From NCBI GenBank assembly GCA_963669155.1, contig OZ022584.1:13804179-13868178 (forward strand): a stretch of 64,000 nucleotides of DNA. Reading direction: 5' to 3'. Positions 22,389-59,315 of this stretch are shown here, piece by piece. A program made the translations under genes and the position numbers. This DNA comes from Arbacia lixula. Taxonomy: Eukaryota; Echinodermata; Echinoidea; Arbacioida; Arbaciidae. Numbering within the stretch: position 1 is the stretch's first letter; each line of letters starts with the position of its first letter. The notes beneath the pieces were generated by a model. The model saw nothing but the letters and a program-made list of their open reading frames with translations, did not search any database and was not told the DNA's origin.

Positions 22389-22639
22389 GTTGTGCGGATG
22401 GCACGACGGAGGGCCTGGCCACCAAAGAGGGCCTCGCGGCGTGCGCAGGGAAGTGGGCAGGCCACGTGGGGAACGCCAGCCAGCTGTGTGCCCCAGGCTG
22501 GGGGGTGTGCAGCTGGGAGCAGGCTGGTCTGCTCTCTAGCGTCACCTGGGTGGAGGCCGTGGGCGTGGATGGCTGCTTCGCCTACAACGCGGCCCACGAC
22601 AGAGGGGAGTGTGGGCCCTGCAAGGACACCTTAGAACAG
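22389..22639 (+). CDS. Exon 2: first half of cysteine-rich module A
   Basis: Acceptor CCCCAG (AG 22387-22388) and donor ACAG|GTAGGT (GT 22640-22641). The exon enters in phase 1, completing a glycine codon, and leaves in phase 0 after 83 full codons. The peptide is residues 33-115 of the joined protein. It carries seven cysteines with the landmarks CADGTTEG, LAACxGxW, GHV, LCAPGWGVC, GCFAYNAA and ECGPC, and one N-glycosylation sequon (NAS). It aligns without gaps to exon 6 over 78 residues with 38 identities by hand count. GC at third positions is about 82%, far above the surrounding intron. I do not recognise the family. The protein is extracellular by inference from its disulfide-rich character and the signal peptide. 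Confidence 0.9.
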
Positions 22640-23191
22640 GTAGGTGCCCTTTTTCATATCTTATTCTATCATTAATATCTCCTTACAGACAGGGCCCATT
22701 TACAAAAGTCATGAAAGTCAGCAGGAATCAGAAGTATACCCTTAACTATAACATGTATGAAATTTAAGTTTTAGCTTCAGGAACCATTTTGGGAAAAGCG
22801 AAAAACTATCCCTACTTCTTCAAAATGTATTGACCATAGTCTACATTCATATACCGTATTGCAACATGCGGTGCGCCACTTGCCTCAACGCATCACGGTG
22901 CATGTGCGAAAAGCCGTAATGTGCACTATTGCGTATTGCAGTCTCCAGGCTGTAGGCTATAGCTTTTGAAGCTAGCCATTGATATAATTCTGTCTGAAGT
23001 CAGTTCTACAATTGGGAGGGAAGGTCTAATACATCATTTTCTTCATTTTTTTGTGTGTTTTTAGAGAGATTTTTTACAACCATCCTGCTGTAATGCCTTG
23101 TTCACACAAAAGTGATTTGCTACTGCTGCTCTTGCTGCCTGGCGTATATGATGCTGGTAAAGCAACAAAATGGAATCATATAAACAAAATA

Positions 23192-23520
23192 CCAGGGTGG
23201 TGTTTCACCAAGCTGTTCTTGCTAAGAATGACTTTATGCAAGACTGCTTACCCTTTCTTGTGCTAAATGAGATTCTCAGTGATTTTGATTCCCATCAGAT
23301 AAAGTTCATTTCTAATGTTTAGAAATTAAAATCCTTCTTGTAAGCAAGTGTCTGAATACGAAGTTTATAATTTGTTAAATTTGATTAGGATTAAAGGAAA
23401 TTAACTTGCACTGTGTAAAAATAGACAAAGTGGGGTATCTCATAGCACAAGAAAGGGTCACGAGTTGAGTGTAAAGACGTTCTTAGCTTAAGAACAGCTT
23501 GGTGAACCCCCCCCCCCCCC
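23192..23520. mobile_element. TIR element, TTTCACCAAGC family, long copy (about 330 bp)
   Basis: The left arm CCAGGGTGGTGTTTCACCAA, CTGTTCTTGCTAAGAAYG, TTTCTTGTGCTAAATGAGAT is matched in inverse orientation at the right end. That end reads ATCTCATAGCACAAGAAAGG, TTCTTAGCTTAAGAACAG, CTTGGTGAACC and then a C-run. Arms are about 95 bp and imperfect. It is the same family as 42106-42289. Confidence 0.8.
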
Positions 23521-26500
23521 ACGTTGGTTCTCGCTCTTTGCCGGTGGGGAGAAACTATGTGAACAGCCCAGTAAAAGTGTAATTATTGTCGTGCGGCATT
23601 GGCACACTGTTTCCGCGGGAACACACCTTTAAGAGAACAACCTGTATTCATGCACTGCACACATATTTCAGAATACGTGCACTTGTTTTACAGTACAACG
23701 CTTCAGCTCTTGCCCTTTTAAATCTATCAAGCAGGTATACCAGAAAAGATGACAAATTCCATATGACACATCTCTCCCTAACGAGGCAAACAGCTGTGAA
23801 AGTCATTAGCATGGTTGTAGTCATCCTAGTTCAGGTAGATGCTAATTTGGCCGTAAAAGTCAATTAAGTTGAATTTCTATGGAACATTAAACAGTACATG
23901 TAGGTCTTCATAAAGTGGTGACACAGGGTTATTAGGAAGTCAATGATGACATCAAAAACAAAAGTATCGTGAATAAGGATAGTAACAGTCTATACCCTAA
24001 ACCCAACTTCATGGTATGTACTTACACTCTGAACATCTCAACTCTGGGAAGAAGTTTGTGCTCACTGCCATATATGCTTCTACAAATAATGTAAACAACA
24101 ACCTCTCAGACTTCTAGACTCCAGTATACATACACTAATCTCATCAAAACAATTTTGGTATCTCATGTCTACATTTTATACAGCACACCCATATATCTTC
24201 TTAATCATTAATACCTGAGCGATATAAAAGCAAATCTTCTGTAGCAATTTTATCTTTATTATGCCTGTTCAAGGTTCAAGTTCAACCTAGGCACAGGCGA
24301 AGTGACCTGTACGCTCAGGTCTACATAGTTTGATTATTAACTGTTTATATTTTATTGCAGGGTATTAATAAGATGTTTGTATAGGGCCACAATTTAACTG
24401 TACATACAGATGATATAGGTACACTGTAGCAGGTAAATATATTCAGGATGTGTTCTTGGTGACGTACAAGATTTTGGTATTTACTCGTGACTGATAATGA
24501 TCATAAGAATCATGGATAGAGTGAAGCAGTGAACTTTGTTTCATCAAGATAAGTTTTGGAGATGTATACACAGTACTGCTCATAGATAGATACTTAGACA
24601 ATGAATAAAAAGATGGTAACATCATGACATACTAATAATTTATACAATTCTTCTTCTCTTAAACCCTATGCATGCATGTTAATTGCAAGTATTTGCTTGG
24701 TATTATTTTAAGTTTTATAACATGAGGATTGTTAGAAATTTACTTACATGTTAATACCAATAAAGATTGATTTGTTTCTTGGAAGAGAAATTACTTATCC
24801 AATTGTTGATTACAAACTTGAAACCTAAAAGAATTATTCTATCTATTTTGAGAGAACATTAAAAAAAGATAAAGTTTGTAAATGTTTAAATTTTGAACGA
24901 TATGGAATGAAGTATACCTTTTGAAAGGAGACTATCTGATGAATTGAAATATAAACCTGGAATGCAATATGTTTGTCATATCAGGCCTTTGAGCATTGAT
25001 AGTGAGTCCACATACCTCTCATATTACTGGCAAGGAAATTTCAGATCAAACTGAAATTGTTGAAGATGGTATCAGCTGCTTTCAGAAGAATTCAATTTCC
25101 CTCAAACTTGATGTGTTTATAGGAGAGGATATTAAAGTGATACAAACATGCATGAATGTTCTCTACAAAACTGCATGGTAATTGTTGTTTATTTATTTTC
25201 ACGCTTTTTGCACAACACGTCTTAGCAAGCAGGAATTTATCTTCACTTTGAATTTAAAACCATCCTGCTATCATTAGCAGGCTTGACATGCAAGTCTATC
25301 AGGGATTCCAGAGTTACTAGTAGTGAAATTCAACTCGTGCGTGTTTTGCATGCTGTAATGCGTTGCACAATCATTGGCTATTTTGTGACGTTAAATGTTC
25401 ATGATAATGTTGTGCCCAGAGATTTGTTGATGATTTTAATGCACGCAGTGGATTCTTTTTGAAGTGAAAAGTATTTCTTATGCACAAAAAATAATATCCT
25501 GCAAATATGTTGTAGGTATGCTGTCCAGCAGAAGTTTACTTCCACTGAAATTACCGGGTTTTACAAAAGTATAGCAAGCAGGTGGTAGGCTTGAAGTAAG
25601 ATAACAGAACCATTGCTTCTTTGAACTCGATTTACTGTTCATGTCAAGCAGATTGTTGGTTCAAATATGTAAACAGGAACATGATTAACGATGTACCTCA
25701 CTCTAGAGAATGTACAGCATGTAATGGGGTGGAATTCTACACATATCACATGTCAGGATTGATTTGATATGGCATTCGCAATGTAGATGCATTGGTTATC
25801 TGCTCCTGCGCATGTGTGTGTAACTAGATAGGCAATAGGTCCATTGACATGAATATCACATGATGGAATTACATCATACATCAAACCACATCATGCCTTG
25901 ATATTTGATAGGCTGTCTCCCGGAATGAGAGGAAATGGGAATGAAGTTAATAGGCGGTGAGGATGAGATGGGGGTTGACTTTTGCGAGTGGCAGGAACGG
26001 AGAGGGAAATGAAGTTTAACAGAAATAATGGAAAATCATTAGATCGTTACATATTTCACATTTATTTCAATACAAGGAGCAATGCATTATCTTCATTGTT
26101 ATTAATTATTATTGTCATTAATCACAGTGTTACTTTTATCTATGGTATACCAGACTTTTTGTCTATGAAGCACCATTTAATTCTGTCAGACAGCAATATT
26201 ATGTGAAGGTTTAAATGCATGGATATTATCATTCTTGAAGTAAATAAATAATTATTTATGAATTGATTCATACTTACCAAATTGCTTAATTTGGAAAGAG
26301 AAAAGACAAACTTTTGCATAGATTGTACACAGGATTGGTAGCAGTTAAAAGTGCAAGTATGTCATACACACATAATTGTTCTACAGGGAAAAGTACAAGC
26401 GCACTTTGCTGGAGAAAAAAGAACGGCAAGAAATTGCATCTGCATGGAAGTACCTGTCATTTTGATTACTGCAGTAAAATGGGTAGTCTTGTGATTAAAC

Positions 26501-27464
26501 CTTCTTTTGGAGGATAGGTTCTAATAGTCTGCCATAATACGCTTTCAAAATATCAAATGGTACAGTGTTACGGTTATTGACCCTCCAATACCTCCAGGGG
26601 AAAAGTGATATTATGAATCCATTAATATGAAGTCACTTAATGTCAAAGACAGAAGAAAATATGTTAGATGGATGTAATGGGAGGCTAGTCTTAAGAAATA
26701 TCGCAGTTAATTTCTCATATGTGGAGCTTAAACAATACCAAATTAAGTCCATATCTTATAGGTAGTACAAGTCTATAACAGTATTCTATTTTGTACATTC
26801 ACAATCATGGAAGTGTTGATTAGTTAGATTAAAAAGTGCATATCATTACTTCGTAACACTTAAACTACTATAAAATGGCAGAGAAAAATGGTGTAGATTT
26901 TCAAGACTATTTGTCGTGTTTGATGAAGACCTGTTCGAAATGATTTTGAATGGAAGATCTCCCTTAATCAGATTTGTTCTTAATGCAGCGTGTGTGTTTT
27001 CCTTACTCCTTGGCATAGCGGGGATATGTGACCTACATAACGTGAGCGGTGTTATTGTTGCTCATATATGGATAAAAGTGACAAGGGTAACTTTTACCTT
27101 CCACTCTATATCCTTTGCTTGTTTCTCTTTAAGTCGTGCATGGGCATGAGGCATTAAGCTCGAGATACATTGACGGCTTATGATAGTAGAATGTCAGAAA
27201 TACAATTGATAGTTCTTTCTTATCCTAGGTAGGAAGAAGAGTACTGTTGATGGAAAAACAAAAGTCAACCAATGCAAAATCTTGCATTTATTTGGAGCAG
27301 GAAATGATAAGAGCAATTATGATCATAGCTAAGTTATATGTTTTTGTAACTTAAAAGAGTATTTGTTCAGTTGCATTACAGAATAGAAATGACTGTCACC
27401 TGTCCACATGCTTTCCTCCAATTCCTGTTTGTAATTGTAAGAAGAGATAAGATAAAAATATATT

Positions 27465-27830
27465 TTACTTTGTGTTGCTGTAAACATGTGATTCATAGAG
27501 GAAACAAATATTTTTACAGACTGTATTCAAAATTTATCACAGGCAAAGACAACATTTTGCAATGAAGGGTGGGAATATGCAGGCTGCTTACATTACACTG
27601 ATGTTGTGGTGAACTGTCAGAGATGGGATGGGGATTTGAGCAGCTTTTCAAAAAAATGTGTGTTGCTATACTTGTGATGTCATTGAGGAAACGACTGTTT
27701 TTACACACCGTATGCAAATGTTTCCCAGGCAAAGCTAAAATCTTGCCATGTAGAGTGAGAATACCCAGGCTGGTTGGTTCATGCGCTGATGTTGTGTTGA
27801 ACCATAGGGTCCAGGGTTGAACTGTCAAGA
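27465..27830. repeat. Diverged direct duplication, period about 190 bp
   Basis: TTTTTACAGACTGTATTCAA, CAGGCAAAGACAA and CAGGCTGCTTAC...GATGTTGTGGTGAAC near 27505-27615 recur as TTTTTACACACCGTATGCAA, CAGGCAAAGCTAA and CAGGCTGGTTGG...GATGTTGTGTTGAACC near 27695-27805. Confidence 0.65.
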
Positions 27831-28059
27831 GCGACAGAACGGGGGTTGATTTGAGAGAAAGGGAGGGCGGGCGGGGGGAAAAGGGGGGGACATGAGTCAG
27901 GGCAGGGAGGGGTGGGGTGGTTCTGTGTAGCCTCATTCCACATCCATGCCTCGCAGCGGCGGAAACGGACCAGCGTCCCAGCTTTCCAAGCACTGCTCCG
28001 AACCATTTGAGCAGAAATGGAAAGGCCCTGAGGAAAGGTGGGACTTGACTTGAAGGTCT

Positions 28060-28372
28060 TGTCACTCTAATAGGTCTTTCCAAGGCTTGCCATCTCCCAC
28101 TCACATCCCCTGTCAGCTGGCAGGCTGCTGGATTTTTCTGTGAAATGTTAAAGAGAGAATCCATAGTAGAAACATGTTATGATCCAGGTATAATTTATTC
28201 TTGTGTTAGTATTAGACTTGAGTATCCAAAGGCATTTAATTCTTGTTGGGTTGTTCATGTCAAAGCTTAGAATCTCTCACTCACAGCCTGTCAGCTGGCA
28301 TGCTGTAAGTTTTCTCTCAGAATTTTGTGAATTGGTTAAGAGAATATGATATGAAAAACATGTTGTGATGCC
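28060..28372. repeat. Diverged direct duplication, period about 190 bp
   Basis: AGGCTTGCCATCTCCCACTC, CTGTCAGCTGGCAGGCTG and GAAACATGTTATGATCC recur as AAGCTTAGAATCTCTCACTC, CTGTCAGCTGGCATGCTG and AAACATGTTGTGATGCC. It follows directly on the previous duplication with a similar period. Confidence 0.65.
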
Positions 28373-28795
28373 CATATTTCTAATTATATTCCGCATACTA
28401 AGAATGTTGCTATATGATTGGTCAAGAGTTGATCACATGATTAAAGAGTAGTTTTGCCTATCTGATCATCCGAGAAGAGAAGTTTGTTACACTCTAGGTG
28501 ATAGTACTTTTTGGTTTTGCTGATCTCTTCACTCCTCACAGTCCTAACGCGTGATCAATATTTTGAGTAAGCGCGAAATAAAAGTGCGTTACACTAGAAC
28601 TATCAATTGACTACTACCAACGCGTCCTAATGCACGTCCTATAATGCGTGTCCTAACGCATGTTCCCCATGGCAGCGGCTCGGGGTTGTGTAGAGAAGTA
28701 AAATTACTTTTTTACTTCAAATTGTCATTTTTGGTATAGATAGTTGGTTTCAGATGTGTAATATAAAGCAAATAATCAACTTTTGGTTTCAGGCA

Positions 28796-28900
28796 ATGAG
28801 ACGAACCATCACTTCCTCGGCGATCTGAATGTATTTCCTCAGCTGCGCTTTGGAAAGATAGTTACATCCAGATCGCCTCTGAAGTGATAGTTCGTCCCAT
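28796..28900. repeat. Long imperfect hairpin, about 105 nt
   Basis: Two 38-nt arms (28796-28833 and 28863-28900) are complementary with about six mismatches. The key pairs are GACGAACCATCACTTC against GAAGTGATAGTTCGTC and GGCGATCTG against CAGATCGCC. The loop adds TTTCC/GGAAA pairing. It could be a MITE, a foldback remnant or a small-RNA precursor. Confidence 0.7.
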
Positions 28901-29347
28901 CACCCTCACCAACATTGGATATTTGCTACCTGCCCGTGTAAAGAAAGACCACAGGTCTATTTAACAACAAATGCTGTTTCCCCCGAATAATGTTTCTTAT
29001 TGAAAAAACATTTTAAAGTAACCTGAAGATGAAGAACATCTGCTAATAAAGACCACATTTCTTGCCTCCCGTGAGTGGCCTTTATGGACAGGTTTCACTG
29101 GCCTTCAAAGTTATTATGACTGGAGTATTCAAAGGGATTTAAATGTCGTTCAGTTTGCGATAAATAAACTGCACATTTCTTGTTGGGGGTCGTAATGAGA
29201 ATAGATGAATACATTTTGTTGATTGATAACTTGGTGCTGCATATGGAATGATGTTTACTTTTTTTGTTTCATTTTTTTTATTAATTTATAGAATATTACC
29301 TTTGTAAAGGGATTATTCTTCTGTGCAAACAGTGATACTATTCATTG

Positions 29348-29436
29348 GAGGAGATAAGGGAGAGGGAGAGAGTGGGAGAGAGAGAGGGGGGGGGGGGAGG
29401 GGGAGGGGGGAGGGGGAGAGAGATAGGGGTGGGGGT
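29348..29436. repeat. GA/G-rich low-complexity tract
   Basis: (GAGAGG)n-like sequence with long G runs. Confidence 0.9.
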
Positions 29437-30599
29437 AAGTCAATATATTATGTGTTAGTTAGGTTTCAGGCAATTGATTCACCCAAATGCAAAAATTGAT
29501 ATGTACACATGAAAGTGATATTGCTCTTATAATTGTGATATTTAAAGTGATTTCCTATCTTGTATTTCAACAACATATACGCAGACGAAAATACTTTATT
29601 TGTTTATGCCATTGCCCCCTGCTCTCGTGATTCAGTTACCAGCAATGCTACTCTGAAGAAAGAGAGAGAGAGAAAACAAGAAAATGAAAGTTTGGACTGT
29701 ATTTTGATTTGGCATCGCCCATGGACAAGAAAAACTCATCTTGTTTGTGGTCTCGGCCAGAGGAGTGAGGCCACTTAAGACACTTTGTCGTCTTGAAGGG
29801 CCATGAGCAGAAGAAAAGAAGGCAGAAAATACAGTGGTTTCCTCTGCAGACCTCATTACTCATATTACAGCCAGACTGCTCTATCATGAGTAACACCTCC
29901 CGCCTATATCAGAGAGACAGGGTACAAACAGAGAAAAGTGGTGGGTTTTTCAGCACGGTGGCAGGTGGTACTCGTCCACAGTAGTTCCCCATTTTGCCCA
30001 GGGTCTGTTGTTCGTTCCCCTAGTTTTAATTCAATTTTCGCTAGCTGCAGAGTAGCCCATGATAGACCGGAGAATTGGAGTTTCTATTATTGTTATGAAT
30101 AATAGAATCACCCCCCCCCCCCAATTTATAACACATATGCTGCCCTGTCCCTCTCCGTCACCCCCCCCCCCTCGTCCATCCCCTCCACTTCTCTCTCCCT
30201 CTCCCTCACTCCCTCTCCCTCACTCCCCCTTTTCCCAGAATAATACTGATTTTGGGCGAATATATGTGTAATTTTATATGCATAAATTGTACAATTGAGT
30301 CTAAAGTAGAAGGATAAACTTGCTACAAGTTATATACTCTGAACATTTATATATTGACAAGAACTTTCAGAAGATAGCTCTGAATGCCCTACATTTATGT
30401 TGGATGCCATGGTACTTTGTTCTTAGTTCTTTATTTTATTTATATTATATAATTGTTATATCTGCTTATCAAATTGTCTTGATTGTTTATGTTTTGTTTG
30501 CCATTTCATGTACCCAGGGCCCCCAAGGAGAAGAGTACTTAGCTCACTGACGGGGCTACGTTGGTAAAAAAGGACAAAATAAATGAATAAAACAAAAAG

Positions 30600-31105
30600 A
30601 ATATAGAAACAATGATTTTATGCTTGATACATTGCAATGGGTAACAAATGCACCTTAATTGCAGCTTCCTACATAGGCCTAGGGGTAATGAGATATATGC
30701 AAATGAGAAGCAAAAAATCAAGAAAATGAGAAATTGCAAGAAAATAGAAACTAGATGAACGTTATGCTTGTTACATTGTGATGGGTAACAAATGCGCCTT
30801 AATTGCAGCTTGCTACATAGGTCTAGGGGTAATGAGATACGCAAATGAGAAGCAAAAAATCAAGAAAATAGAAAGAAGATGAACGTTATGCTTGTTACAT
30901 TGTGATGGGTAATAAATGTGCCTTAATTGCAGCTTGCTACATTGGTCTAGGGGTAACGAGATATGCAAATGAGAAGCAAAAAATCAAGAAAATGAGAAAT
31001 TGCAAGAAAATAGAAACTGGATGAACGTTATGCTTGTTACATTGTGATGGGTAACAAATGCGCCTTAATTGCAGCTTGCTACATAGGCCTTAGGGTAATG
31101 AGATT
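30600..31105. repeat. Minisatellite, four units of 124-144 bp
   Basis: ATGCTTGWTACATTGYGATG starts units at 30620, 30764, 30888 and 31030, with spacings of 144, 124 and 142. Each carries CCTTAATTGCAGCTTSCTAC and GGGTAATGAGAT. The short unit lacks about 18 bp containing GAGAAATTGCAAG. Confidence 0.9.
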
Positions 31106-31261
31106 GTCCTTCATGCTGCTGAATGCTCTCCTCAGGATGCGACCCTACCACTCCCAAATGACTCATGCTCCTCTGTTTGTAGGCAAGACTGTCAAAACTC
31201 CCGCATTTGTCTTGATTAAGAGCACAGTATGACGTTTGTTAGATTCATACAAGTTTGGGAT

Positions 31262-31508
31262 GATTGTCTGCGTTGATATGATATTTCGCTAACCAAACAT
31301 GTTAGTTATGGAACTTTCATATAGTGAACTTCATGTATAAGCTAGGGAATCTATTTTGATGATGATATTGTGTTCATATTTTAATACAAATATCTGCATT
31401 GATATGATATTCTGCTGACCAAACATGGGGATTGTGAAACTTACATGGTGAAATATAAGCTAGGGTTGACGATGATGATGATGCTGATGATGTGTTCATA
31501 TTTTAATT
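31262..31508. repeat. Tandem duplication, period about 130 bp
   Basis: TCTGCGTTGATATGATATTTC, ACCAAACATG, TATAAGCTAGGG and TGTTCATATTTTAAT appear once in 31267-31385 and again in 31392-31508. Confidence 0.8.
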
Positions 31509-33004: not shown

Positions 33005-33143
33005 GGCCCTGTTGCGTAAAACTCACCATTGGTGGTAACTTTGCTACCAATGGCAATTTCTATGGAAACCTTGAATTTTGATTGGATGTCAAGCGATGTT
33101 ACCATCGTTACTATTAATGGTAAGTTTTTATGCGGTGGGACCC
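33005..33143. mobile_element. MITE, GGCCCTGTTGC family, copy 1
   Basis: The left end GGCCCTGTTGCGTAAAACTC and right end TTTTTATGCGGTGGGACCC are imperfect inverted repeats. The interior holds CCAATGGCAA, TGGAAACCTTGAA and GATGTTACCAT, shared with the copies at 42288, 42579 and 60742. Confidence 0.8.
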
Positions 33144-33734
33144 TCACATTAGTCTGCTTGTCTTGCATTTCACCCTCTCAAACTGTGCAAGAATAAAGTG
33201 TTGTTTATGATCAATTCCTTATTACCAATAAAGAGTAGTCTTTATTCTATCTAAATATTTGTTTATATAAAAATTTGGTAATAGTGTATTGCCATGACAT
33301 ATAGCTGCATGCATCAAATAATAATCATTCATTCTTCAGTTGTCATGAGGTTAATACAGGAAACATTAAATTTGAATCAGTCTCTCAGATTTCCATGTGA
33401 TCAAATTAAATGTACCGGGGTAAGTTTTACTGAACTTTACCTTCCAGGAAACATATATGTAGAAATGTGTTCCTCTCTAGGCCACATCTGTACCAAATGT
33501 GATCAACACTGGCATAGTGGGCTGGATATATGCATGAGTAAAGTGCAAATGAACGGAATTGATTAGTCGCGGCGTATCTTTGCTGACATGCTCGCTTGTT
33601 CCCTCTGCAGAATTTTTAAAAGAGGTCAGTGATCGTGGGGGGATCTGGACACTCATAGAATTAGGAAGCAATTTGTGAAACACTTGTCATCTCCGGCGAT
33701 TTTTCCCCCAAAAGTGTGTCACGCAAGATGTACA

Positions 33735-33770
33735 TCGGAGGGAGAGAGTGGGAGGGAGAGAGAGAGAGAC

Positions 33771-33816
<46 letters not shown>

Positions 33817-33848
33817 GGAGACAGACAGAGATAGGGACACAGAGATAC
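33735..33848. repeat. GA microsatellite, left flank of an inserted element
   Basis: (GA)n with GACA interruptions. It is interrupted by the element at 33856-34311 and continues at 34312. Confidence 0.9.
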
Positions 33849-33855
33849 AGAGAAA

Positions 33856-35957: not shown

Positions 35958-36124
35958 CTGCCTGCCTGGTAATCCCTTCCTAAACACAAGGTGGAGCACT
36001 GACAACATCGGGCCGCCAGAAGGTGGCCAGGGTTACGCCTTCCATAAATAGGCACCGCTCCGTATCCAAACACGGCCGTCTCAAGAAGGGAACAGGCACC
36101 ACTCGTATCCAAACACGTCCATAA

Positions 36125-40503: not shown

Positions 40504-40672
40504 GATGATTTGGGCGGCATTGGGAGGACTTGTCCACACCAGAACAAGGGGCAGACATCTTGCCTGGCGTCTGGGCGCATCGACGCAAGCTGCTGCTTGG
40601 ATTCACACTTCAACAGGGCCTGCCATTACAGGCCGGGCCTCATGACTGGCGTCGTCTGCTGCAAACTCCCAG
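40504..40672 (+). CDS. Exon 3: second half of cysteine-rich module A
   Basis: Acceptor TTTTTTGTCATCAG (AG 40502-40503) and donor CCCAG|GTAAAT. It enters in phase 0, matching exon 2, and leaves in phase 1 after 56 codons (residues 116-171). Landmarks are DDLGGIGRTC, TSCLASGRIDASCC, a central NRACHYRPG and the closing MTGVVCCKLP, with seven cysteines. With exon 2 the module has 14 cysteines, an even number that suits a fully disulfide-bonded extracellular fold. The same signature recurs in exon 7 (DVLGGVGRHC, SCLGEGRVD, SGALCCRIP). The exon has no ATG-led frame of length, so it is seen only by similarity to exon 7 and its splice borders. Confidence 0.9.
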
Positions 40673-40688: not shown

Positions 40689-40719
40689 GAAGAGAAGAGA
40701 AAGAGAATGGGAAGAGAGA

Positions 40720-40768
<49 letters not shown>
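40689..40768. repeat. GA microsatellite just inside intron 3
   Basis: (GA)n beginning 17 bp after the exon 3 donor. Confidence 0.9.
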
Positions 40769-42105
40769 AGAGAAAACCACCAAAACACTTTTAAAGTGAT
40801 ATCAAAGTTGTATAATTATGTGATTCATAGCACATCAGGGCGTACCACTACAGAATTTGGCAACAATTCATTTTTGACATTGCTGCATATTCAGGAGGTC
40901 TGTGCATTCCACGATTGTGTAAGCATTATAAACAATACATCATTGTAAAGATAAATAGTTTAGCTGTCTTTAATATGATACCACATTTATGTACAATAAA
41001 GAAGCAATTGCAGATATATTACCCCAGAAAACTCAGTTGCAGGAATTTTAAAGGGATTTATATGAAGAGTGGCCTAGTAGAAATCAATATAAAACATAGA
41101 TGACCTGTTCCTGTGCGATAGAATACGCTTCCCTATGTGTCTTGTGTGGATTATTGCTGACAAAATACACATATACAGGGTTAATAGAATGAAATGTCAC
41201 CACTTCTACTTCAATTTCAATTTCAATTTATTTTCCGCTTGAATAGACAAGATGTACAAAACTGCATAATAATATATATTTATAAGTTGGTGGCAGACCC
41301 AATGAAAGTACAAAGGCTCATAGGAATGGTCCCATTTCACGCTTATATACATAGGATACAGTGAACTTACTTTAGATTATTACTTCCAAGCATCACAATG
41401 AAGATCATGATGAAGTCTTAAATACTATTGAAGGCGTGTGTGACCACATCCTTACAAGTGAGGTTCAGGAAAACCACCTGTACGTGCTGCGGATCACGGT
41501 GTATATTTAGCACGGGTTCTTCCCCGGCAATCGCAATACCAGAGGGATGCGGCATCTGTGAAGTTGAGAAGGTTCTGACACTTCTGGGAAACCACTTGTG
41601 CCACAATCATTTCTTACAAGAAAGTGCATCTTCTCCTCACATATCATATATGCATTAAATATTCCTCCTTTTTAGAAGGTGGTGAGTTACATGTATGACT
41701 CATAACATGAAACGGTACACATGTGGTACATCTTCTTGAGTATCAATTACAGCTCGATCCAGTTACATATTCGGTACTATATCTATGTATGAAGTATCTA
41801 ATTTTTTTTTATATATCTTTGTACCTGTTTCATAAGTTATTTGATAAGTTTGTCAGTTTGTGTAAATGAAGATTAAGATCTCCTGTGTCAGACCCGTCAT
41901 TTTTCTTGTTTTATATGCAAGTCATTAGAGCATTTATAAACCTAAACAGTCACATAACAGGTGTTGTGTTTGGGTTCACTGAAACTGGCAACTGATCAAC
42001 CAATTGACTAGGCACTCTTATGGTGGCATTGTCTTTAGTGTATATCACAAATGCATACACACGTAGAGTACATCCATTACAGCCACACATGTTTGTTTGA
42101 AAAGT

Positions 42106-49467: not shown

Positions 49468-50199
49468 TAAAGGGATAGTCCACCTTGAAGTTAAGTTGGT
49501 TTTAAAAAAAGCAGAAATATGAAATGAACAAGTAAGAGAAGGTTTGTCAAAAATCAGACTAAGGATAAGAAAGTTATGATATTTCGAAATTTCAGCTCTG
49601 TGACCTCACGTGCAAGATAGGTGCTCTTCCATATGTTGTGTGCCGTATGATTCCTTTTCTGTTTTTGATGAAGCAATAATTTTTTCATAGTGTAATGTGT
49701 GGAAAAATGTCATTCTAATCATGTATCAAATGGGTTAATTGCCATTTGGTCCAATCCCAGTTGGTCCACTCGCCATTTCGTCTACAAGGAACCCCTTAAA
49801 AATACCATTTTAGATTAAAATATTGGGTCAAATTATCAACAACTCTAATCTACACCATAACCTCAAGGGTTAACCCTAATCCAGACCTCCTACCCCAACC
49901 CTAACCCATACAAATCAGCATGTGATAGTAGAAGAAATGGTGAGTGGACCAACTGGGATTGGACCAAATGGCAAATCACCATCAAATGCACAGCTGATGC
50001 ATATACTTTTGAGAAAATGGACATTTTCAAAAAAAATGTACACAACATATGGGAGAGCACCTCGCATGCGACGTCACAAAATCAAAACTTTAAAAAATCA
50101 TGACTTTCTCATCCTTTGACAAATTTTTGTCAAACATTCACTAATATGATTCTGGTTTTATCAAAACCGTCTGAATTTCAGAGTGAACTGTCCCTTTGA
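49468..50199. mobile_element. TIR element of the AAAGGGATAGTCCACC family (about 730 bp including an insert)
   Basis: The left end AAAGGGATAGTCCACCTTGA and right end GAGTGAACTGTCCCTTTGA are inverted. The similarity continues inward for about 190 bp: TTTGTCAAAAATCAGACTAA, GATAAGAAAGTTATGAT and CCATATGTTGTG are mirrored by AAATTTTTGTCAAA, ATCATGACTTTCTCATCC and CACAACATATGGGAGAGCAC. A second element sits in its middle. Relatives lie at 40030 and 51497. Confidence 0.8.
49733..49980. mobile_element. 248-bp hAT-like MITE nested in the previous element
   Basis: A perfect 8-bp direct repeat, ATCAAATG, flanks it (49725-49732 and 49981-49988). TIRs begin GGTTAATTGCCATTTGG and GGTGATTTGCCATTTGG (complement of the right end). 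The next part, 49741-49778 against 49935-49972, matches at 37 of 38 positions. An 8-bp target duplication is the hallmark of hAT elements. The interior contains CCAACCCTAACCC and has no coding capacity. Confidence 0.88.
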
Positions 50200-51301
50200 T
50201 ATGGAGACAGGCATCAACACATATTTGACAGCCATGGTGTTCATCCCTTTGCATTGCTATTTGTGTGGTGAAATATTTTAAAAGCGGGTAAAGTATCAGG
50301 AAAGGGAAGGAGGAAAGCCGACGTGCTGATGCGTGATGCTAACACAACGGCTAGATCAAGAAGCGAGATCCGCTCCATTACCAGAGGCAAAAAACCCTTT
50401 TCCTAAACCAGAAGAGGGAAATTAAATCTTGTAATTTGAGGAAAGCAAACTTTCCAGGTGGTGTGGATGTCGTACACTTGAGCTGGGGAGTTGAGTTGAA
50501 GCTATATGATTGCACAAGTCAAGTGTGATGATGCCGAACTCCATGTCTAATGTGCATCTGTGTTACGAGCTCCTGGTTGCTATAATTAGATGGCTCAAAG
50601 TGGTTGCCGAAAAGATGGCTTTACTCTGTAAATCTGTCTACAAAAGGGACAAACTTTTGATATACACTGTATATCCTAGAAATCATATGAGTGAGCAGAA
50701 GAGTCATTTATCTTTTGCCATAATGGAACATTTGCTTTGTGTGTTAATATCATCTGTTTTTTTCACCAGCATATGAACGTATCTACAGAGAGCAATATTT
50801 CAGTAAAACTTTGCTTGAAATATTTATATTTTAGAGAGGACAAGCAGTGTGTGTGTCATAATCGATATGTCAGAGATTGTGATATTCTGGAATATGTGTG
50901 AACTAGTTTCAGAATTGAATTGAAACATCGGCTAAAGGAATTCATACAAGTGTAGTTTATCACAAATATACTGAACATTTTGGTAACACCATGTGGTCAT
51001 ATTCTTTCAGAATATTTGACCCACTTATAGAATGACAAAAGGAAAGTAAAGTGAAAAGAGAAAAGAGGATTTTTTCAAAGTCATTTTTATGACTACTTAC
51101 ACAGGGCTGTTTTAAGCTTCAGCTTTCAGTGTTTAACTAAAAAATGAACGAGTCACAAAGAAGTTATACAGAAATAGAAGAAAGAAAGTATAGAGGCAGA
51201 GTGTCGTAAAAATAAAGTAAGTTTTGCAATAAACTATAGGTTTCTTCCAAAATCAGACAGAGAGAGTATCTATTTCTTTGTGCTTCTCTCCCACCATACA
51301 G

Positions 51302-51472
51302 ACATCCCACCAGCCATCGATGAGCGCTTCCCAGCAGAGATGCACGTTAGTCTGGGCCAGAACATCAGCCTGCACTGCTCTGCCTCGGGTAGCCCTCAGC
51401 CCAAGATCAGCTGGCTCAAGAATGGAGACTTCCTGCTGCAAGACCCCTTCCGGAGGATCACCATCACCCCAG
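51302..51472 (+). CDS. Exon 4: first half of the Ig domain
   Basis: Acceptor CACCATACAG (AG 51300-51301) and donor CCCCAG|GTGAGA, phase 1 in and out, 56 full codons plus split codons (residues 172-229). It carries the A-to-E strand part of an I-set Ig fold. The first core cysteine is in SLHCSASG, then SPQPKISW with the invariant tryptophan, then LKNG and RRITITPG. There is one N-glycosylation sequon (NIS). The second cysteine is in exon 5. A phase-1 intron inside an Ig domain is common in animal adhesion and receptor proteins. GC at third positions is about 75%. Confidence 0.93.
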
Positions 51473-51496
51473 GTGAGACATAATGCTTGCACTTAA

Positions 51497-51735
51497 ACGG
51501 AAAGTCTACCTTGAAGGTAAGCTGTTTTTTTTTAAAGCAAAAACATGAATGAAACAAATAAATAGGTTTGACAAAAGTCAGTCAACGAATAACAGAGTTA
51601 TCAATTTTCAATTTCTTGATTTGTGACATGTGTACCAGTCCACCCTGTTGGTTTTCATAAAAAAAAACATGAAATAAAGAAATAGGTGAAGGGTTAACCA
51701 AAGTCTGTCAAAGGAAACAGAGTTTTGAATTTTTA
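51497..51735. mobile_element. Remnant of the AAAGGGATAGTCCACC element family
   Basis: GGAAAGTCTACCTTGAAGGT, AGGTTTGACAAAAGTCAGTC and ACAGAGTTATCAATTTTC match the left arm of the 49468 element. Part of the block repeats at about 51655-51720 (GGTTAACCAAAGTCTGTCAA). Confidence 0.6.
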
Positions 51736-52616
51736 AATTTGCTAAAAAAATGTTTGTAGAAGTGAAAGGCAGAGGCTTGCTGTAGTATAAAGCTTGTAGG
51801 AGTTGCTTTTTCATATTCAAGTGCACAAACAAGTTTGATTTATGTACAAAACCTGCCTAAATATTGAGTTCACTTTTCTGGTTTGTGGTCGACATTCTCC
51901 AATCTCATTGAACTGTATTTCCTGGGCCGCAGTCATAATAGAGTACTTGAAGAACAAAGTCAGACAAATCAGCAGTCTTTGACAGCTTCTTTCAGAAAAT
52001 ACAGCCCATTAAACTGCTGTTTCTGGTTGAAAGAAACTATGGGGATGTGGATATGCATGTGGGGAGAAGACATCAGGATTGGGAAATGAACTATTAATCA
52101 GCAAATGCTACTATAAATGTTTATGGCAATACGTGACTGTAAAACCTTTGTGAGCCAGATAAACTGCTGCTCGATTGGAAATTGTGTGTATTCATTGTGA
52201 AAAAAGTTTCAAACACAAACAGTTAAGGCAGGAAGGTGGAGGCATACTAGTCAGCGTACTCTTTATTCAACTTTAAGTTAATAATTCAGCTCAGAACCAA
52301 ACTAGATAATTTCAGACATTTAGAATATGTTTCAACTCTCAATTTGCTGGAATGTCAAAGTACTTGTATTAGATCTACTTTTAATTTGGAATTTCATACC
52401 TCATGGTTCATGTGTCCATTGTGAATTACAAGATAGACCAGGGTCTTCTAAAGCAGCTCTAATGAATAAATACCATTTTACCTAGCCTTGATGCATTGCT
52501 AAATATTATGTTAAATTCTATTTTGTCATCTGTCTGCAGCTGTTTAACCAAGTTGTTTAACCAATTTAACCAAGTAATATGACATGTGCTTTTTTTAATG
52601 TCCATGTACATTGTTT

Positions 52617-52885
52617 GGTAACAGTCCGATATTCCAAAGGCTCGTTATTCTGAAGGGTCGTAATTCCAAAACACGTAAATTCCCTATACCTCGATGCTCA
52701 TTAGTCCGAAAACGAAAAAAAGGTTTGTCGATCCGATCATTTGTGGCGTTATTTCGAAGGTCCATTAATCCGAAAGTGAAATAGGGTTCGTAATTCTGGA
52801 GGCTCGTTAATCCGAAAACGAAATAAGGCTCATTTCTCCAAAGATTCGTTAATCCGAAATCAAAATAAGGTTCATTTTTCGCATT
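52617..52885 (-). repeat. Dispersed repeat, CGTTATTCCGAA family, expanded reverse copy
   Basis: It reads in the opposite direction to copies 1 and 3, with GTAACAGTCCGATATTCC, AACACGTAAATTCCCTATAC and CTCATTAGTCCGAAAACG. It then continues with extra iterations of TCGTTAATCCGAAA(A/T) at about 28-40 bp spacing to 52885, which the other copies lack. Confidence 0.8.
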
Positions 52886-55204
52886 CATATTCGTGTCTTT
52901 CATTTATGTATCTTTAATGTGGTTTAGTGGGGTGGGGTAACATCACCACACTTGGTATAGATATGTTTCACTCTGTATTATTGTTTTTGTTTGTTATTCA
53001 GCATTATACTCACTTCAAACCCATACTTTTTACAGATTTGAATTACCAACTTGTAGATTTATCATTTGACCTTTTTTTCACTTTGGAAAATCCTCACTTA
53101 GATTATATCTATCAATTAAAAACAAACATGAAGAAATGTAATGTTCATTAATGTGATGCATCTTTTATTATTTGTAATACTTGATATCAGCAGTTATAGT
53201 CCCTTACCACATATTTGTGGTACTAAGTCTCAAATGGGTTAAAAAATGAAGAATTAGCTGATGCCTATGACTCCCAGCCAGGGCACAGTTAGGGTATGTA
53301 CGTAGGGAGCAGCTTGAGAGGAAGAGGAAGTCAAAATGGGTCGTCCCTTGCTCTGCCCATTTTTGTGGCTATCTTTGAGGTCATTAAAGCAGATTTGCCA
53401 AAATGGAACGCAGATGCGGTTAGCCTTTTGGACATGGCTAATTCAAACTTAAAGATAAGATTCTAGTACTGACAAGACTAGTCACTCTTTCATTCACCTC
53501 TTTTCTCCCTCCGTGTTTTGGGGGCGAGGCGGACAAGGAATTGAGAATGAATATTCTACTGCAGTGAAACCTGTTTATCGAATATTAGAGTTAAGATTGA
53601 AAATGCCCCACAGCCGAGAAGGCAGGCTAAGATGCAGGCTGTGGTACACATTTAACTCACTGAAGAAATATGAAGTGCACAAAGCAAGTAAATGGTATCA
53701 AACAAGTTCTTGTAATAGTCAACTTTTTTTGTTGTTGTGACCATATATCCATCACAAATGGAATTGATTTTCCTTTCCGGGGTTTATTAAAGTACTATAT
53801 CTTGTAGCAACATATATATTTCTTTCCTCTGTGACCATAGATCTTGGGGGAAAAAGTTTATGATGAACATTTGAATCAGGTTCCCACAAATGTATTGTAG
53901 AGCATTCTTTTGGATTATGTGACTCTTCTCTTCCCTCCACAAATTTGTCTTACTTTTGTGTAAAAGGTAAGCGCTGACGCATGTTTGCTTATATTTGATC
54001 TGCGGAAATCTTTGATCTTCCTCTTGAAATTCTAGTCCGTTATATTGTTCAATATTGGCCCAATTCAAACATCCTGTTATTCCCTTGTTGCAAGTGTAAC
54101 CCACAGAAGGCAATACATGTCTATTGTCCAATGTACAACAAGTTGTGATATGTTTGAACAACTTGCTGACTAAATATCACTAACCTGTTCAAAAAGTCAC
54201 CGCTGAGTACTCACCTTTATTATCAAGGAATTTAAAAAGGAGTAATATTGATATAGGTTTTTTTTCAGCCTCTTGATCTCATTTGTGAAAGAAAAATTAC
54301 TGCAATCTTTCTTTTAATTGAAAGGGCAAGGAGGCATGTAGCGATAGCATTGTTGGTATGTGAAGAAAATAAATGTTTCAAAGAAGTGGACCCTTTTATG
54401 TTGACTGGTTCATGTTTCATTTGCAGTGAAAGGGATTGAGCCCTTATCAATCATCAGTCAGGGATGATATGATGCTGGTTTCAATTTTGATGAACACAGT
54501 TTGAGAGTGAATAAGGAGGTCAACTGTTTGTGCAAGCAATCCCCTTCAGAACCTTTGTGTGTCAGAGTTGTGTTTTGGGAAACATATATACAGGAAGCTC
54601 AGTGTCGTCCAACTTATCATTGAATACCGGTATGTTATTCTGTAGTGCTCCAGTTTGTAAGTTAAATATGCACTCGAAATAACGCCGAAAAGTGAGCAGA
54701 TGAATGAGCATGGGACGAAAGTCACAAAAGAGAGAAAAAAGGGCAGGGCCTTATTAAAACATGTCTCTTTCAATACATGCCTCTTTATAATTTATTCAAA
54801 CATTTCAATGTTCTGCTTATGAACCAGCTCATGAGCTAGAGGATTGGTGATGCATGCGCAAGGGCAGTGACTTAAAAGTGACATTAGGGTGATTTACCCG
54901 AAGAACAGAAACCTCAATCTCCTGCTTTCCACCCGCGCCAGCTCCGATTCGTCCCTTCCCTTCCCTTCCGTCCCCTGGAGTCCTCCGATACACTCACTGC
55001 CCCTATCATTTCCCATCTTCCTTCCCCACTCCTCCCCCTCTGTAACCATCCCATGCCTCTCTGACCATCCCTCGCCTCTGTAACCATCCCTTGCCGATCC
55101 CGTTCCCCCACGATCCTGAATGTCAAGGGTAATAGTGAGTGGAAGATGGGGAAGGGAACGCCCTTCCCATAGGACTAGACTCCGAGAGCAATGAACTTAC
55201 GGGG

Positions 55205-55295
55205 TTAACCTGCTTTCAACCCTCTCGGCACCACAGGTGCAGGAAATGTGTGATAAGTAAATGAGCTTTTTCTGGCTTGGTACTCTAACAGTTAA
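55205..55295. mobile_element. Possible diverged TTAA MITE
   Basis: TTAA at 55205 and 55292 bounds CCTGCTTTCAACCCTCTCGG ... CTTGGTACTCTAACAG. It resembles the degenerate copy at 12980 in parts. This is a weak call. Confidence 0.2.
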
Positions 55296-55573
55296 ACTTG
55301 ATGTGGATTCATATTATGCTTCTAGACCCCTTCGAGAGCACTCTAGCAGCTCAGGACGCTCTTGTGTACACACCCAAAATCAACAAAAGTGTTCTGAGAC
55401 ATTGTAGGAAGTGTCTGAAATGGTTCTGCAGATTCGCAAAGTTATTTCGGCATTCTTGGACTTGTTCTAGGTTTGTTGTATATTTGAGGGGAGCATTTCA
55501 AAGCGTGACAGGGGGACTAAGTTTAATTTTTATATAGATTCCTTTTTGATTTGCTTTATCTTTCCTAGTATTT

Positions 55574-56240
55574 CACCCACTTGCTTCCTTCATGTCATAT
55601 GAACATGTACATTATCTTCATGTCTTTCCCTTCTTTTTCCCAGTGTTTATTTAATTTGCATCTCTCCTGTTTTATTTGTATTCTCATTCTGCCATTTGCC
55701 CTCATTCTGTCCTTCTGTCTTCTCTTCTTTCTTCCAGTTGCAATTTCTGTTTTTATCTCTTTCCTTCTGTTTGTTTCAGCTTTTCTTTTATTCATTTTTT
55801 CTTTTCTTCTTTCTTCTTTGCTTACTAATTTTCTTCCTTTTTTGGTTTTTGAATTTTTCTCTATCTAGTTCTTTTGTTCAGTTTTGTTTTTGTCTTCTTT
55901 CTTCAATTCTGTCGTTGTTTCTGTTCATTCTCATTCTTTTCTTTATATTGTTTTCCTTCAATACTTTTCTCCCCACGTCGCTTCTTTTCTTCTTCATATG
56001 TTCATGGCTTCTTTTTCTTCTTCTCCCCGGTTCCTGTCTTTTTGTCTTTCTTTCTTTATTGTTTTCCTTTCTGTTACTCTATTTCTAGCATTCTACAATT
56101 GGTATGTATCTTCATTCATTATTTCACTTTGTTTCTTTCCTCCTCTTAAATTCAATTCTTCATTCCTTACTTTGCTTCACCCAAGATCTCTTTATCTTCT
56201 CCTATACATGTTTTATTCCGTTGTTTCATGACCAATCTCC
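55574..56240. repeat. Long pyrimidine-rich tract
   Basis: About 650 bp of C/T-biased sequence (TTCTTTCTTC-like) with no fixed unit. Overlapping phenylalanine/leucine/serine-rich open frames in several phases are composition artefacts. It lies in intron 4, ending about 180 bp before exon 5. Confidence 0.8.
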
Positions 56241-56418
56241 TTCCTCTTTAGTGTATAAAAGCTGTTCCCATCATTTGAAACTAAGGTAGAACCCCTCCAT
56301 ATTTGATGTAGGTTCATTGTTAACATAACTGATATATTACAGTAATACTCAGAGTACATCTTATTCTTCTCTTCAAATAAATCAGAGTCTTTTTTGTCTT
56401 TTTTGCTTACTTCAACAG

Positions 56419-56532
56419 ATACAATGGTTATTCACAAGGCTACTGAGTTCGACAGTGCCCATTATTCATGCATAGCAGCTAACATAGTGGGGTATGCCAA
56501 GGAAGATATCACAGTCAAAGTCTCTGACAAAC
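56419..56532 (+). CDS. Exon 5: second half of the Ig domain
   Basis: Acceptor TTCAACAG (AG 56417-56418) and donor ACAAAC|GTAAGT, phase 1 in and out, 37 full codons (residues 230-266). It contains the I-set F-strand motif DSAHYSCIAAN with the second core cysteine, then the G strand EDITVKV. This completes the fold begun in exon 4. GC at third positions is about 46%, against about 75% for exon 4, although both halves belong to one domain. A near-copy of its donor lies 187 bp downstream. Confidence 0.93.
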
Positions 56533-56790
56533 GTAAGTACAAACAATCAACTATAGTACTTGTAATGATAGTGTTGGTTATGATAATGATGATAGTGATG
56601 ATGATGTTGATGACGATGATGATGACGATGATTTTGATGATGAATTTGCTGGAAGTGGTGCTGGAAGTGGTGTTGGTTTTAAGAAATACTTGTCATGAAA
56701 GGTTGCACAAAAGAGAAACGTAAGTACAAAAAATCAACTATAGTGAGTGTAATGATAGTGTTGGTTATAATAGTGATGGTGGTGTTGTGG
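56532..56790. repeat. Tandem duplication copying the exon 5 splice donor, with GAT microsatellite
   Basis: CGTAAGTACAAACAATCAAC, TATAGTACTTGTAATGATAG, TGTTGGTTAT at 56532 recurs at 56719 (CGTAAGTACAAAAAATCAAC and so on). Between them lies a (GAT)n-like stretch (56585-56645) with GTGGTGCTGGAAGTGGTG. Confidence 0.85.
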
Positions 56791-58259
56791 TGGTGATGAT
56801 GATAATGATGAATGTGATGGCATTGGTGCTTAAAATGGTGTTGTTCTGAAGAAATACTTATATTGAAAGGTCATACTCATACAAAAAGCTAATTACTTTA
56901 AAAGAGACATCATGATTAAAGTCTCCATTTAAAGATTTATGAAGATGCACGCTGGAATTGTAAAATAGCCAGCTGGAGTGATATGAAATGTGCACCAAAC
57001 GCAAACCTCCAATGCATTATGATAATAATGTATGCAAGTTGTCGGCTATTGAGGATGGATATAAGATGATCAACTGTGCTGTGGGAAGCATAACCAAACT
57101 CTGGTTAACTCTCTCATTACCATCACCATGGAGATGTATAATAAGCCAATGGGTGTTTTAAGGTCTGGTAATGTAAGAATTAAGTCAGGTTGCTTGCAAG
57201 AACCGACGTCTTTAATTGTAGAGGTACAATGCACTTTCTGCTGTATATTTCTGGTGAGAGCCGTGCATATTTCTTCAGCAGTCAGCAGTCGAAATTTCAT
57301 TACAGATTTCGCACATGACTGCATTTGTGCTATGAGCATGAGTGTATCAACAATCCCACTGCTAAAGTTAGCGAAAGCTTTGTGGATTTGAAAGCATTTT
57401 AGTTATTGTACCTCCACTATGTGGAGAGCATTGTCCTTGATAGTGGTGATGGGTGTGAAATATTGAATTAGAGTCCACTTAGAGATGTGGTGAGACATAT
57501 CTGTCAAAGTAGTTACGTATTATGTGATGGATATTTGTTCATAAGTGTTAACAAATTTATGATGGAAAATTATGAAAGCTTGATTGAAATGATTCTAATG
57601 AGAACTGTTCATAGTTTTCTTGGGATAACATTTCAATATTCATTGTATTTTGCTGAGAAATTCTTTCTCCTTCTGTGAATGTGACTCCATCTGGTCACTT
57701 GAGCGTGTGGTTGTCCATTTATCTGACCATTTGGTCAATTTAGCTATATACCAATATAATCAAAGTCAATGCCAAAAGCTATTTACGGGCAATTGACAAG
57801 CAAATCATATTGTGTTGGATTATGGCAATACTTCAAAATAATTGTAATGGATAGTGGAGTTGGGCAAAGTGCTTTTGCAGTCTTGTTGATGTGAATATGA
57901 AGAAAATTTGAATTTTCACCAGACCCCCTTCCCCTCTAGTTGGCTGTATTTCTACACTCTAGATATCCATCTATTTTGCTGTGCATTATATCGATATAAT
58001 GGATGTCAAAGGCTTTGATTATATTCTGCTCAAAATATCAAATGGCAGTGCTTCATTGAATTAGCGATGGCAAAAAGACTCTAAGTCTACATGAGTAAAG
58101 GCAAAAACAGCAAATTCCAAATGGCTCCAAAAGTTCTATATGGAACGATGTGGTCAACATCGGGTAAAAGTTCTATATTGGGTAATATGGTCAAAATCAG
58201 TAAAAGTGCTATCTGGTCAGCATGAGTAAAGTCGTGTGCACACGTTTCTTTGCATACAG
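56533..58259 (+). other. Intron 5 (about 1.7 kb)
   Basis: It holds the donor-duplicating tandem repeat and a TTAA MITE. The remainder is AT-rich with nothing recognised. Confidence 0.85.
57105..57183. mobile_element. 79-bp piggyBac-like MITE, copy 3 (TTAA flanked)
   Basis: TTAA stands at both ends. The inner ends are CTCTCATTACC and GGTAATGTAAGAA. It has the same 79-bp length as copies 1 and 2. Confidence 0.78.
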
Positions 58260-58506
58260 CCAAGAAGAAGGAGATTGGGTGCAAGGACGGGACTATAGAG
58301 GGCCTCCACCACATGCAGAGCCTAGCAGCCTGTAGCGGGGCCTGGAAGGGGCACGTAAAGAAGGGCAAGACCCTCTGTGCCCACGGCTGGCGGGTCTGCA
58401 ACCACGAGGATATCGACACCCTCAAGCACATCTCGTGGCTCGATGCCACTAGCATGAACGGCTGCTATGCATACAACGCCGCCAACAATGAGGGCAGGTG
58501 TACGAG
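58260..58506 (+). CDS. Exon 6: first half of cysteine-rich module B
   Basis: Acceptor TTTGCATACAG (AG 58258-58259) and donor ACGAG|GTGAGG. It enters in phase 1 and leaves in phase 2 after 81 full codons (residues 267-349 with split codons). A basic linker, PKKKEIG, precedes the module. Landmarks repeat those of exon 2: CKDGTIEG, LAACSGAW, GHV, LCAHGWRVC, NGCYAYNAA, with all seven cysteines at the same spacing when the first codon of exon 7 is included. This is an internal duplication, 38 of 78 identical by hand alignment with no gaps. High GC contrasts with the flanking introns. Confidence 0.93.
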
Positions 58507-59085
58507 GTGAGGGAGAACGATGGTTATACATTACAGCGATATCTGCTTTTTGCGATCATCTTTGGAAAAAATAACCCACCTGTTTATAGAGACCACATTT
58601 GTTGTATCCTTAAACTAAATTCAAGCTAGTTACCATCTTTTATTCAATGGTTTATTCAAATTGGTATGATTAATATGTGTTTTTTACACGGTCTGATTCA
58701 TAGAAACGTGCCTGAATTTAGGGGAAGCACTCATTATTCCGAAGGTTCGTTATTCCAAACGTTACGCGACAATTGCTCGGATTAACGAACCCTTTTTCAT
58801 TTTTTGACTAACGAGCATCGAGGTATAGGCAATTAACGTGTTGCGGAATTACGAACCTTCGGAATAACGAACCTTCAGAATATCGAACTGTAACCGAAAT
58901 TAGCACTCTATGCAGAACATGTGCTTTCATTATTGGACCCTTTTAAAGCATGATCTAAATCTTAAAGTCCTTTATGAATTCAGGCCTTGGTGTGTAAGCT
59001 ATGATTGTCTTGTGAGAACCTATATAGGGACCGCGTCTCATGAAGGACCTTGCTCACACCAGAATAAATTTCCTCTCCCATTCAG
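58507..59085 (+). other. Intron 6 (579 bp)
   Basis: It lies in phase 2 inside module B, 22 bp earlier in the aligned coding sequence than the corresponding intron of module A. It contains a CGTTATTCCGAA-family repeat. Confidence 0.85.
58722..58894 (+). repeat. Dispersed repeat, CGTTATTCCGAA family, copy 3
   Basis: GGGAAGCACTCATTATTCCG ... GAGGTATAGGCAATTAACG ... TATCGAACTGTAACCG closely matches 5084-5240 in the same orientation, with one extra iteration of AATAACGAACCTTC. Confidence 0.85.
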
Positions 59086-59315
59086 CTGCACAGGGGAGCC
59101 GGGCCATGACGTGCTGGGAGGGGTGGGGCGGCACTGCTCCAAACGCCGACAGCGCCACGAGTCCTGCCTGGGGGAGGGGCGGGTGGACGTCTTCCCACCG
59201 CACCGGGAGTACGTCTACGACCAGGTCGACAAGTGCTCCTTCCAGGAGGGGCTGCTCTCTGGTGCCCTCTGCTGCCGCATACCGGACAGGCGCAAGGGCG
59301 GCCCCGGAAAAGTCT
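59086..59315 (+). CDS. Exon 7: second half of cysteine-rich module B
   Basis: Acceptor CTCCCATTCAG (AG 59084-59085), chosen over CTGCACAG at 59092-59093 because only the first gives the phase 2 needed by exon 6. Its single leading base completes a serine codon. Donor GTCT|GTGAGT, phase 1 out, 76 full codons. Landmarks are SCTGEPGHDVLGGVGRHC, HESCLGEGRVD, VDKCSFQEG and SGALCCRIP, then a basic tail, DRRKGGPGKV. It has five later cysteines against seven in module A, lacking the ASCC pair, so B has 12 cysteines in total. The loop between the GR(I/V)D motif and the next cysteine is three residues longer than in A. Confidence 0.92.

Follow-up and report, generated by a model that had tools for sequence, protein, structure and literature searches.

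The window, that is, the whole 64-kb stretch of DNA that was analysed, lies within a 26-Mb contig of an animal genome (607 Mb, 590 contigs) and carries a gene whose ten exons join into a single open frame of 529 residues (Table 1). Contig C590 of this genome matches a cytochrome oxidase sequence of sea-urchin type at 93%, and the match contains twelve TGA codons, which is in keeping with an echinoderm without proving it. The encoded protein displays, in this order, a signal peptide, a first copy of a cysteine-rich module (M1), an Ig domain, a second copy of the same module (M2), two EGF repeats and a short tail. Every boundary between these domains corresponds to a phase-1 intron, a pattern that typically betrays the shuffling of extracellular modules.

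Table 1. Exons of the gene encoding M1 and M2 (positions refer to the window, except for exon 10)
Exon	Encoded part	Position	Strand	Intron phases and basis
1	Signal peptide, with start codon at 3255 or 3267	3255..3348	+	Phase 1 out; consensus donor
2	M1, first half	22389..22639	+	Phase 1 in, 0 out
3	M1, second half	40504..40672	+	Phase 0 in, 1 out
4	Ig, first half	51302..51472	+	Phase 1-1; Pfam I-set 8.6e-16 on the joined protein
5	Ig, second half	56419..56532	+	Phase 1-1; Pfam I-set on the joined protein
6	M2, first half	58260..58506	+	Phase 1 in, 2 out
7	M2, second half	59086..59315	+	Phase 2 in, 1 out
8	EGF-like repeat 1	60948..61052	+	Phase 1-1; Pfam EGF E 0.0051, six-cysteine pattern by eye
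9	EGF-like repeat 2	61859..61993	+	Phase 1-1; EGF pattern by eye
10	Last exon, tail of about 24 residues	G000:C9, about 1.9 kb past the right end of the window		Splice signals and frame alone

Splice signals and frame suggest that exons 1 and 2 are spliced together over an intron of 19 kb. The donor site of exon 1 follows the consensus at 9 of 9 places (score 12.9) and is the best among the few upstream phase-1 candidates that resemble a signal peptide. The earlier note on this DNA, which was drawn from the sequence alone, had placed the module in the company of a signal peptide and of Ig and EGF modules, and this company is found in the joined protein. Indeed, exon 1 is signal-peptide-like and the Ig domain exceeds the cut-off of Pfam I-set. 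EGF repeat 1 obtains 17.5 bits with Pfam EGF, under the 21.5-bit cut-off of this profile, and EGF repeat 2, which has no Pfam match of its own in the joined protein, is assigned by pattern alone. Since no membrane-spanning stretch can be seen by eye after the signal peptide, the protein is probably secreted. N-glycosylation-type motifs occur within M1 (NAS, residue 60 of the joined protein) and within the Ig domain (NIS, residue 192).

Among the best candidates of two single-protein queries against the 607-Mb genome, no second gene carrying the module was found, so that the count of one gene is a lower bound. Inside the introns of the gene, long CT-rich and GA-rich simple repeats are present (62050-62550 and around 40690-40790), as well as a frame of 216 aa on the - strand (27514-28164) without Pfam match. 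Scans of the 64-kb window for tRNA genes and Rfam families found nothing.

The two module copies and the family catalogues

The earlier note had recognized in exons 2 and 3 and in exons 6 and 7 two copies of one module of about 140 residues with 14 and 12 cysteines. This is borne out both by the joined frames, whose splice sites and phases were checked, and by a profile derived exclusively from bacterial sequences related to the module (see below). M1 consists of 140 residues with 14 cysteines and M2 of 143 residues with 12. Over their first 78 residues, a recount on the joined exons gives, without gap, exactly the 38/78 identities that had been counted by hand, and the shared motifs that had been quoted are present at their places on the + strand. 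Over the whole copies, identity amounts to 41% (58/140). When the bacteria-only profile is compared with 3,494 six-frame fragments of at least 20 aa from the window and the 40 kb downstream of it, the four module exons alone match at E <= 1 (exon 2, 5.6e-17; exon 6, 3.1e-15; exon 3, 5.2e-6; exon 7, 0.0042).

Both copies are bordered on either side by phase-1 introns. The intron that splits each module is in phase 0 in M1 and in phase 2 in M2 and also lies at a different position; therefore, these internal introns do not derive by simple shared inheritance from one split.

The module had been said to belong to an unrecognised family, and the catalogues that were searched agree with this statement. 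No family of Pfam-A exceeds its gathering threshold with M1 or M2 (the splice of M2 was provisional in that run), none covers either module in the joined protein, and NCBIfam gives 0 matches to M1 and M2; thus the whole module has no significant match to an existing family of Pfam-A or NCBIfam. A 12-row alignment (A8) yields chance-level matches only, the best E-values being 0.027 in Pfam, 0.13 in NCBIfam (1 of the 12 rows) and 0.04 in PHROGs. Among PDB sequences, none matches the A8 profile at E <= 10, and the other PDB queries stay at chance level (best 0.18). The Pfam I-set and EGF families are neighbours of the module in the animal protein, but the module itself matches neither. A resemblance to a FISUMP-like or Link domain was considered and dropped, as no match whatever was obtained. 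The literature search, which covered mainly titles and the beginnings of abstracts, mostly outside subscription journals, found no description of the module. AlphaFold2 models made from window exons and from L009/L010 have mean pLDDT values of 36 and 39, too low to be of use.

Relatives of the module in bacteria

Two short patterns were compared with a prokaryote collection in which 84,980 species are represented by a single genome each, which is the only sampling beyond one phylum. Of the 107 stretches retrieved, 3 code for relatives of the module (two from uncultured Myxococcales and one from a Deltaproteobacteria MAG). With the queries used, no relative was found in viral contigs, plasmids or phages. 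In the phylum holding the Myxococcales hits, whose named members point to Myxococcota, the relatives fall into two subtypes. The long subtype (that of L010, about 180 to 270 residues) is encoded by 75 of 377 genomes. The short subtype was retrieved from 17 of the 377 by a profile made of M1 and M2 only (best E 9.8e-26), and 16 of these 17 genomes also belong to the 75, so that either subtype is present in 76/377, as counted by genome handle. Thirteen of the 17 short-subtype matches reach at least position 140 of the 153 positions of the profile and one is a fragment; the three others stop at 114-117, but their translations continue to the GV.CC end. In one class, represented by 289 genomes, 63 match at E <= 0.001. 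Only 3 of them (G087, G287 and G381) display a strong full-length match, G101, G156 and G307 display a weak match that spans the profile, and most of the other matches cover at most the first 26-51 positions of the profile.

The short-subtype domain (for example L065/L094, L066/L095 and L067/L092) is like M1 and M2 in being full length and in having twelve invariant cysteines, and it shares with the animal copies the motifs C.DGT.EG, LCA.GW.VC, GCFA, GRIDAS and GV.CC. The long subtype begins with the same order of motifs as the animal copies (GC.DGTREGF, AAC.GAW, DLCA.GW.VC) and has a GGVLCC end. However, it carries about 26 extra residues ahead of the LCA.GW.VC motif, including an insert, GN.G.N..G.GC, that is missing from M1 and M2, and its middle part is different. 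Profile-profile comparison with the animal copies gives 97% probability and an E-value of 1.5e-11 over the first 43 columns only, the second half of the long subtype giving no significant alignment to them. The long subtype also matches Pfam at chance level only (17 rows of alignment A3, best 0.61).

The domain usually ends the bacterial proteins. Among the 70 copies (of 73 distinct ones) for which the end of the frame is in view, 55 lie within 15 residues of this end and 65 within 60. More than 60 residues follow the domain in the 5 others, among them L043, where 219 follow, and L044, where the number is at least 499. The stretch preceding the domain differs greatly between proteins. In a Pfam scan of 13 bacterial frames, seven (L088, L089, L090, L091, L093, L096 and L097) contain 4 to 42 Dicty_CTDC stretches and L092 contains 27 TSP_3 stretches. 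L052:402-8537 (+), a frame of 2,712 residues, contains 36 EGF_3 (33 EGF_CA) stretches, followed by a long-subtype domain at its end. L009, L010, L094 and L095 have no Pfam repeats and carry a low-complexity linker only, L094 and L095 being short proteins of 250-310 residues ended by the domain. By a crude pattern, of whose hits some (L025, L048, L052 and L074) look false by eye, a lipobox-like signal is found in 35 of the 45 copies with their start in view, versus 92 of 560 other long frames, a control that holds many non-coding frames and perhaps a few domain-bearing ones. These sequence features suggest that the bacterial proteins are lipid-anchored and presumably exposed at the surface.

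Two further observations can be made on these architectures. EGF stands beside the domain in 1 of the 13 bacterial frames (L052), a pairing that is also seen in the animal gene. Moreover, a short-subtype domain closes all seven frames with Dicty_CTDC, a repeat that owes its name to slime moulds.

Homology and history of the domain

The long-subtype profile alone makes an unconvincing case for homology: M2 obtains the top score with it (19.9 bits), but one shuffled sequence reaches 15.3 bits and thus scores above M1 (5.6 bits). It is the short subtype that settles the question. A profile of 21 of the 23 bacterial short-subtype copies (L067 and L081 were left out) scores 89.9 bits with M1 (3.8e-26) and 80.4 bits with M2, versus at most 14.1 bits with 4,000 shuffles of M1 and M2, although these scores are not fully independent but mildly circular, as the animal profile had served to collect the bacterial rows. 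This profile covers M1 and M2 at positions 1-143 of 144. In the reverse direction, the two best bacterial matches of the animal-only profile span positions 1-141 of 153. Furthermore, L065 used as a query against the 607-Mb genome (E <= 10) matches, among the best candidates scored, only exons 2, 6 and 3 (1.3e-15, 4.4e-10 and 8.4e-6). The protein of the long-subtype L010 matches nothing in the same genome, and the known module exons were missed too.

With 49% identity (66/134 and 65/134), M1 is nearer to L065 and L066 than to M2 (41%); M2 is 35% identical to each of these two (47/134). Twelve cysteines are invariant in 23/23 rows, and all twelve are found in M1 (positions 2, 19, 34, 41, 63, 75, 78, 94, 104, 124, 136 and 137) and in M2. 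In the 17 columns other than cysteines that are conserved in at least 90% of the 21 bacterial rows, the conserved residue is found 11 times in M1 and 12 times in M2. That two unrelated cysteine-rich domains came to resemble each other by chance or convergence is thus scarcely credible: cysteine-rich sequences can inflate scores, as the shuffle that outscored M1 and remained below M2 with the long-subtype profile illustrates, but neither the 80-90 bits obtained with the short subtype nor the conserved columns other than cysteines fit such an origin. The module is a domain of about 140 residues homologous to the C-terminal domain of Myxococcota proteins. Its twelve conserved cysteines probably form six disulfides. 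A disulfide-bonded fold had already been suggested by the even cysteine numbers, and the conservation of the cysteines is of the disulfide type.

The proposal of the earlier note that this would be a new extracellular domain, with hits limited to certain deuterostomes, is supported in its first part only. The domain is absent from Pfam-A, NCBIfam and PHROGs, but Myxococcales-type bacteria hold it at up to 49% identity. A domain confined to animals would be in line with the lack of any matching Pfam or NCBIfam profile, but such full-length bacterial relatives refute it unless all the bacterial contigs were contamination. Against this, ten short-subtype loci have 61-75% G+C, including L094 and L095, which hold the copies nearest to M1 (73 and 75%), and L094 has bacterial-type neighbours, i.e. 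an MBL-fold-hydrolase-like frame and an AAA_21 frame; the animal-only alternative thus retains hardly any probability. L095 lies beside a subtilisin-like frame, and the remaining neighbouring frames of L094 and L095 were scanned without match. Since the module is also found at the end of proteins, presumably located at the surface, in bacteria of the myxobacterial type, it cannot be regarded as an invention peculiar to animals.

A maximum-likelihood tree built from 32 sequences unites M1 with M2 in one clade (support 100/99) and the eight long-subtype rows in another (100/100). The branch of M2 is long (1.45, versus 0.16 for M1). As M1 and M2 belong to one clade and as the branch of M2 is long, the doubling seems to have taken place within the animal lineage and M2 seems to have changed faster than M1. 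With respect to the bacteria of the short subtype, the tree does not resolve where the animal clade belongs, and it does not decide the direction of transfer. The domain probably crossed once between bacteria and animals and would then have been doubled inside the animal gene. More broadly, we tentatively consider, at somewhat less than an even chance, that the domain represents an undescribed surface-domain superfamily of social bacteria and animals. According to this scenario, an animal lineage would have taken up a myxobacterial recognition head; introns would have been inserted into it, and its duplication and combination with Ig and EGF modules would have given a secreted two-headed recognition protein.

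Possible roles of the domain

Judging from the architecture of the proteins, a binding head appears as the most likely role of the domain, with slightly better than even confidence, ahead of a structural cap and then of an inhibitor or enzyme. The order seen in the bacterial proteins (signal, then stalk or linker, then domain at the end) evokes a stalk that is anchored at one end and bears a head at the other. The lipid-anchored protein would extend a linker or a repeat stalk with the domain at its far end as a putative binding head, which would make contact with matrix, with prey or with other cells. In the animal, a pair of heads carried by an Ig spacer and followed by EGF repeats could constitute a soluble or matrix-bound bivalent protein of adhesion or recognition. 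Bacterial and animal copies differ in their arrangement: the former are encoded by one open frame and are mostly C-terminal, whereas the latter are split by introns and are N-terminal (M1, after the signal peptide) and internal (M2). The head-on-stalk layout is therefore not literally copied in the animal, and we treat the C-terminal place as a matter of architecture rather than as a defining feature of the domain.

The same terminal position could also reflect a structural cap that closes or protects the ends of repeat stalks, or that aids folding or export, without any specific binding; in the animal, it would act as a rigid spacer. The high proportion of bacterial copies lying within 15 residues of the end of the protein, behind very different stalks, is what would be expected from a cap. 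However, several observations weaken this reading: short proteins that have a low-complexity linker only (L094 and L095) also end in the domain, long stretches follow it in L043 and L044, and its place in the animal is N-terminal and internal. We consider a cap rather unlikely.

Less probable again, and in our opinion improbable, is that the domain would serve not in adhesion but as an enzyme, or would inhibit enzymes such as extracellular proteases. Secreted domains that are small and rich in disulfides often act as inhibitors, and the 12-row alignment shows two invariant acidic residues, D4 and D111, although they are conserved at less than 90% in the 23-row one. The 12-row alignment contains, however, no invariant histidine or serine fit for a catalytic set, and the Pfam and NCBIfam scans give no enzyme or inhibitor family above chance.

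For the preferred reading, a binding head, a comparison is provided by TraA, the kin-recognition receptor of Myxococcus xanthus. TraA is described as having a recognition domain, PA14-like and located ahead of a cysteine-rich repeat region, and as ending in MYXO-CTERM (PMC3820747). The likeness to the bacterial module proteins concerns their working only (surface protein, recognition domain, cysteine-rich repeats), and TraA is cited as a working analogy rather than as a relative.

If the proposed reading is true, one uncatalogued domain joins presumed surface proteins of the myxobacterial type to the extracellular toolkit of an animal. A profile of this domain would annotate many bacterial hypothetical proteins (76/377 sampled genomes, in one phylum) as well as an orphan animal gene. 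The gene would also offer a concrete case in which to test whether recognition domains passed from bacteria into animals. To our knowledge, the domain architecture of teneurins is unrelated to that of the animal module protein. Teneurins are reported as a precedent for metazoan adhesion receptors related to bacterial proteins (PMC13018210).

Two other features lie near the gene. A kinesin gene is located downstream of it, as indicated by an exon at L004:9379-9504 (+) that matches kinesin-5/KIF11 structures (1.9e-11). About 28 kb past the window, a Phage_integrase match (L005:7953-8378, - strand, 2.8e-6) stands beside a frame that resembles a reverse transcriptase by eye, and these frames of the - strand of L005/L006 look like a DIRS-type retroelement.
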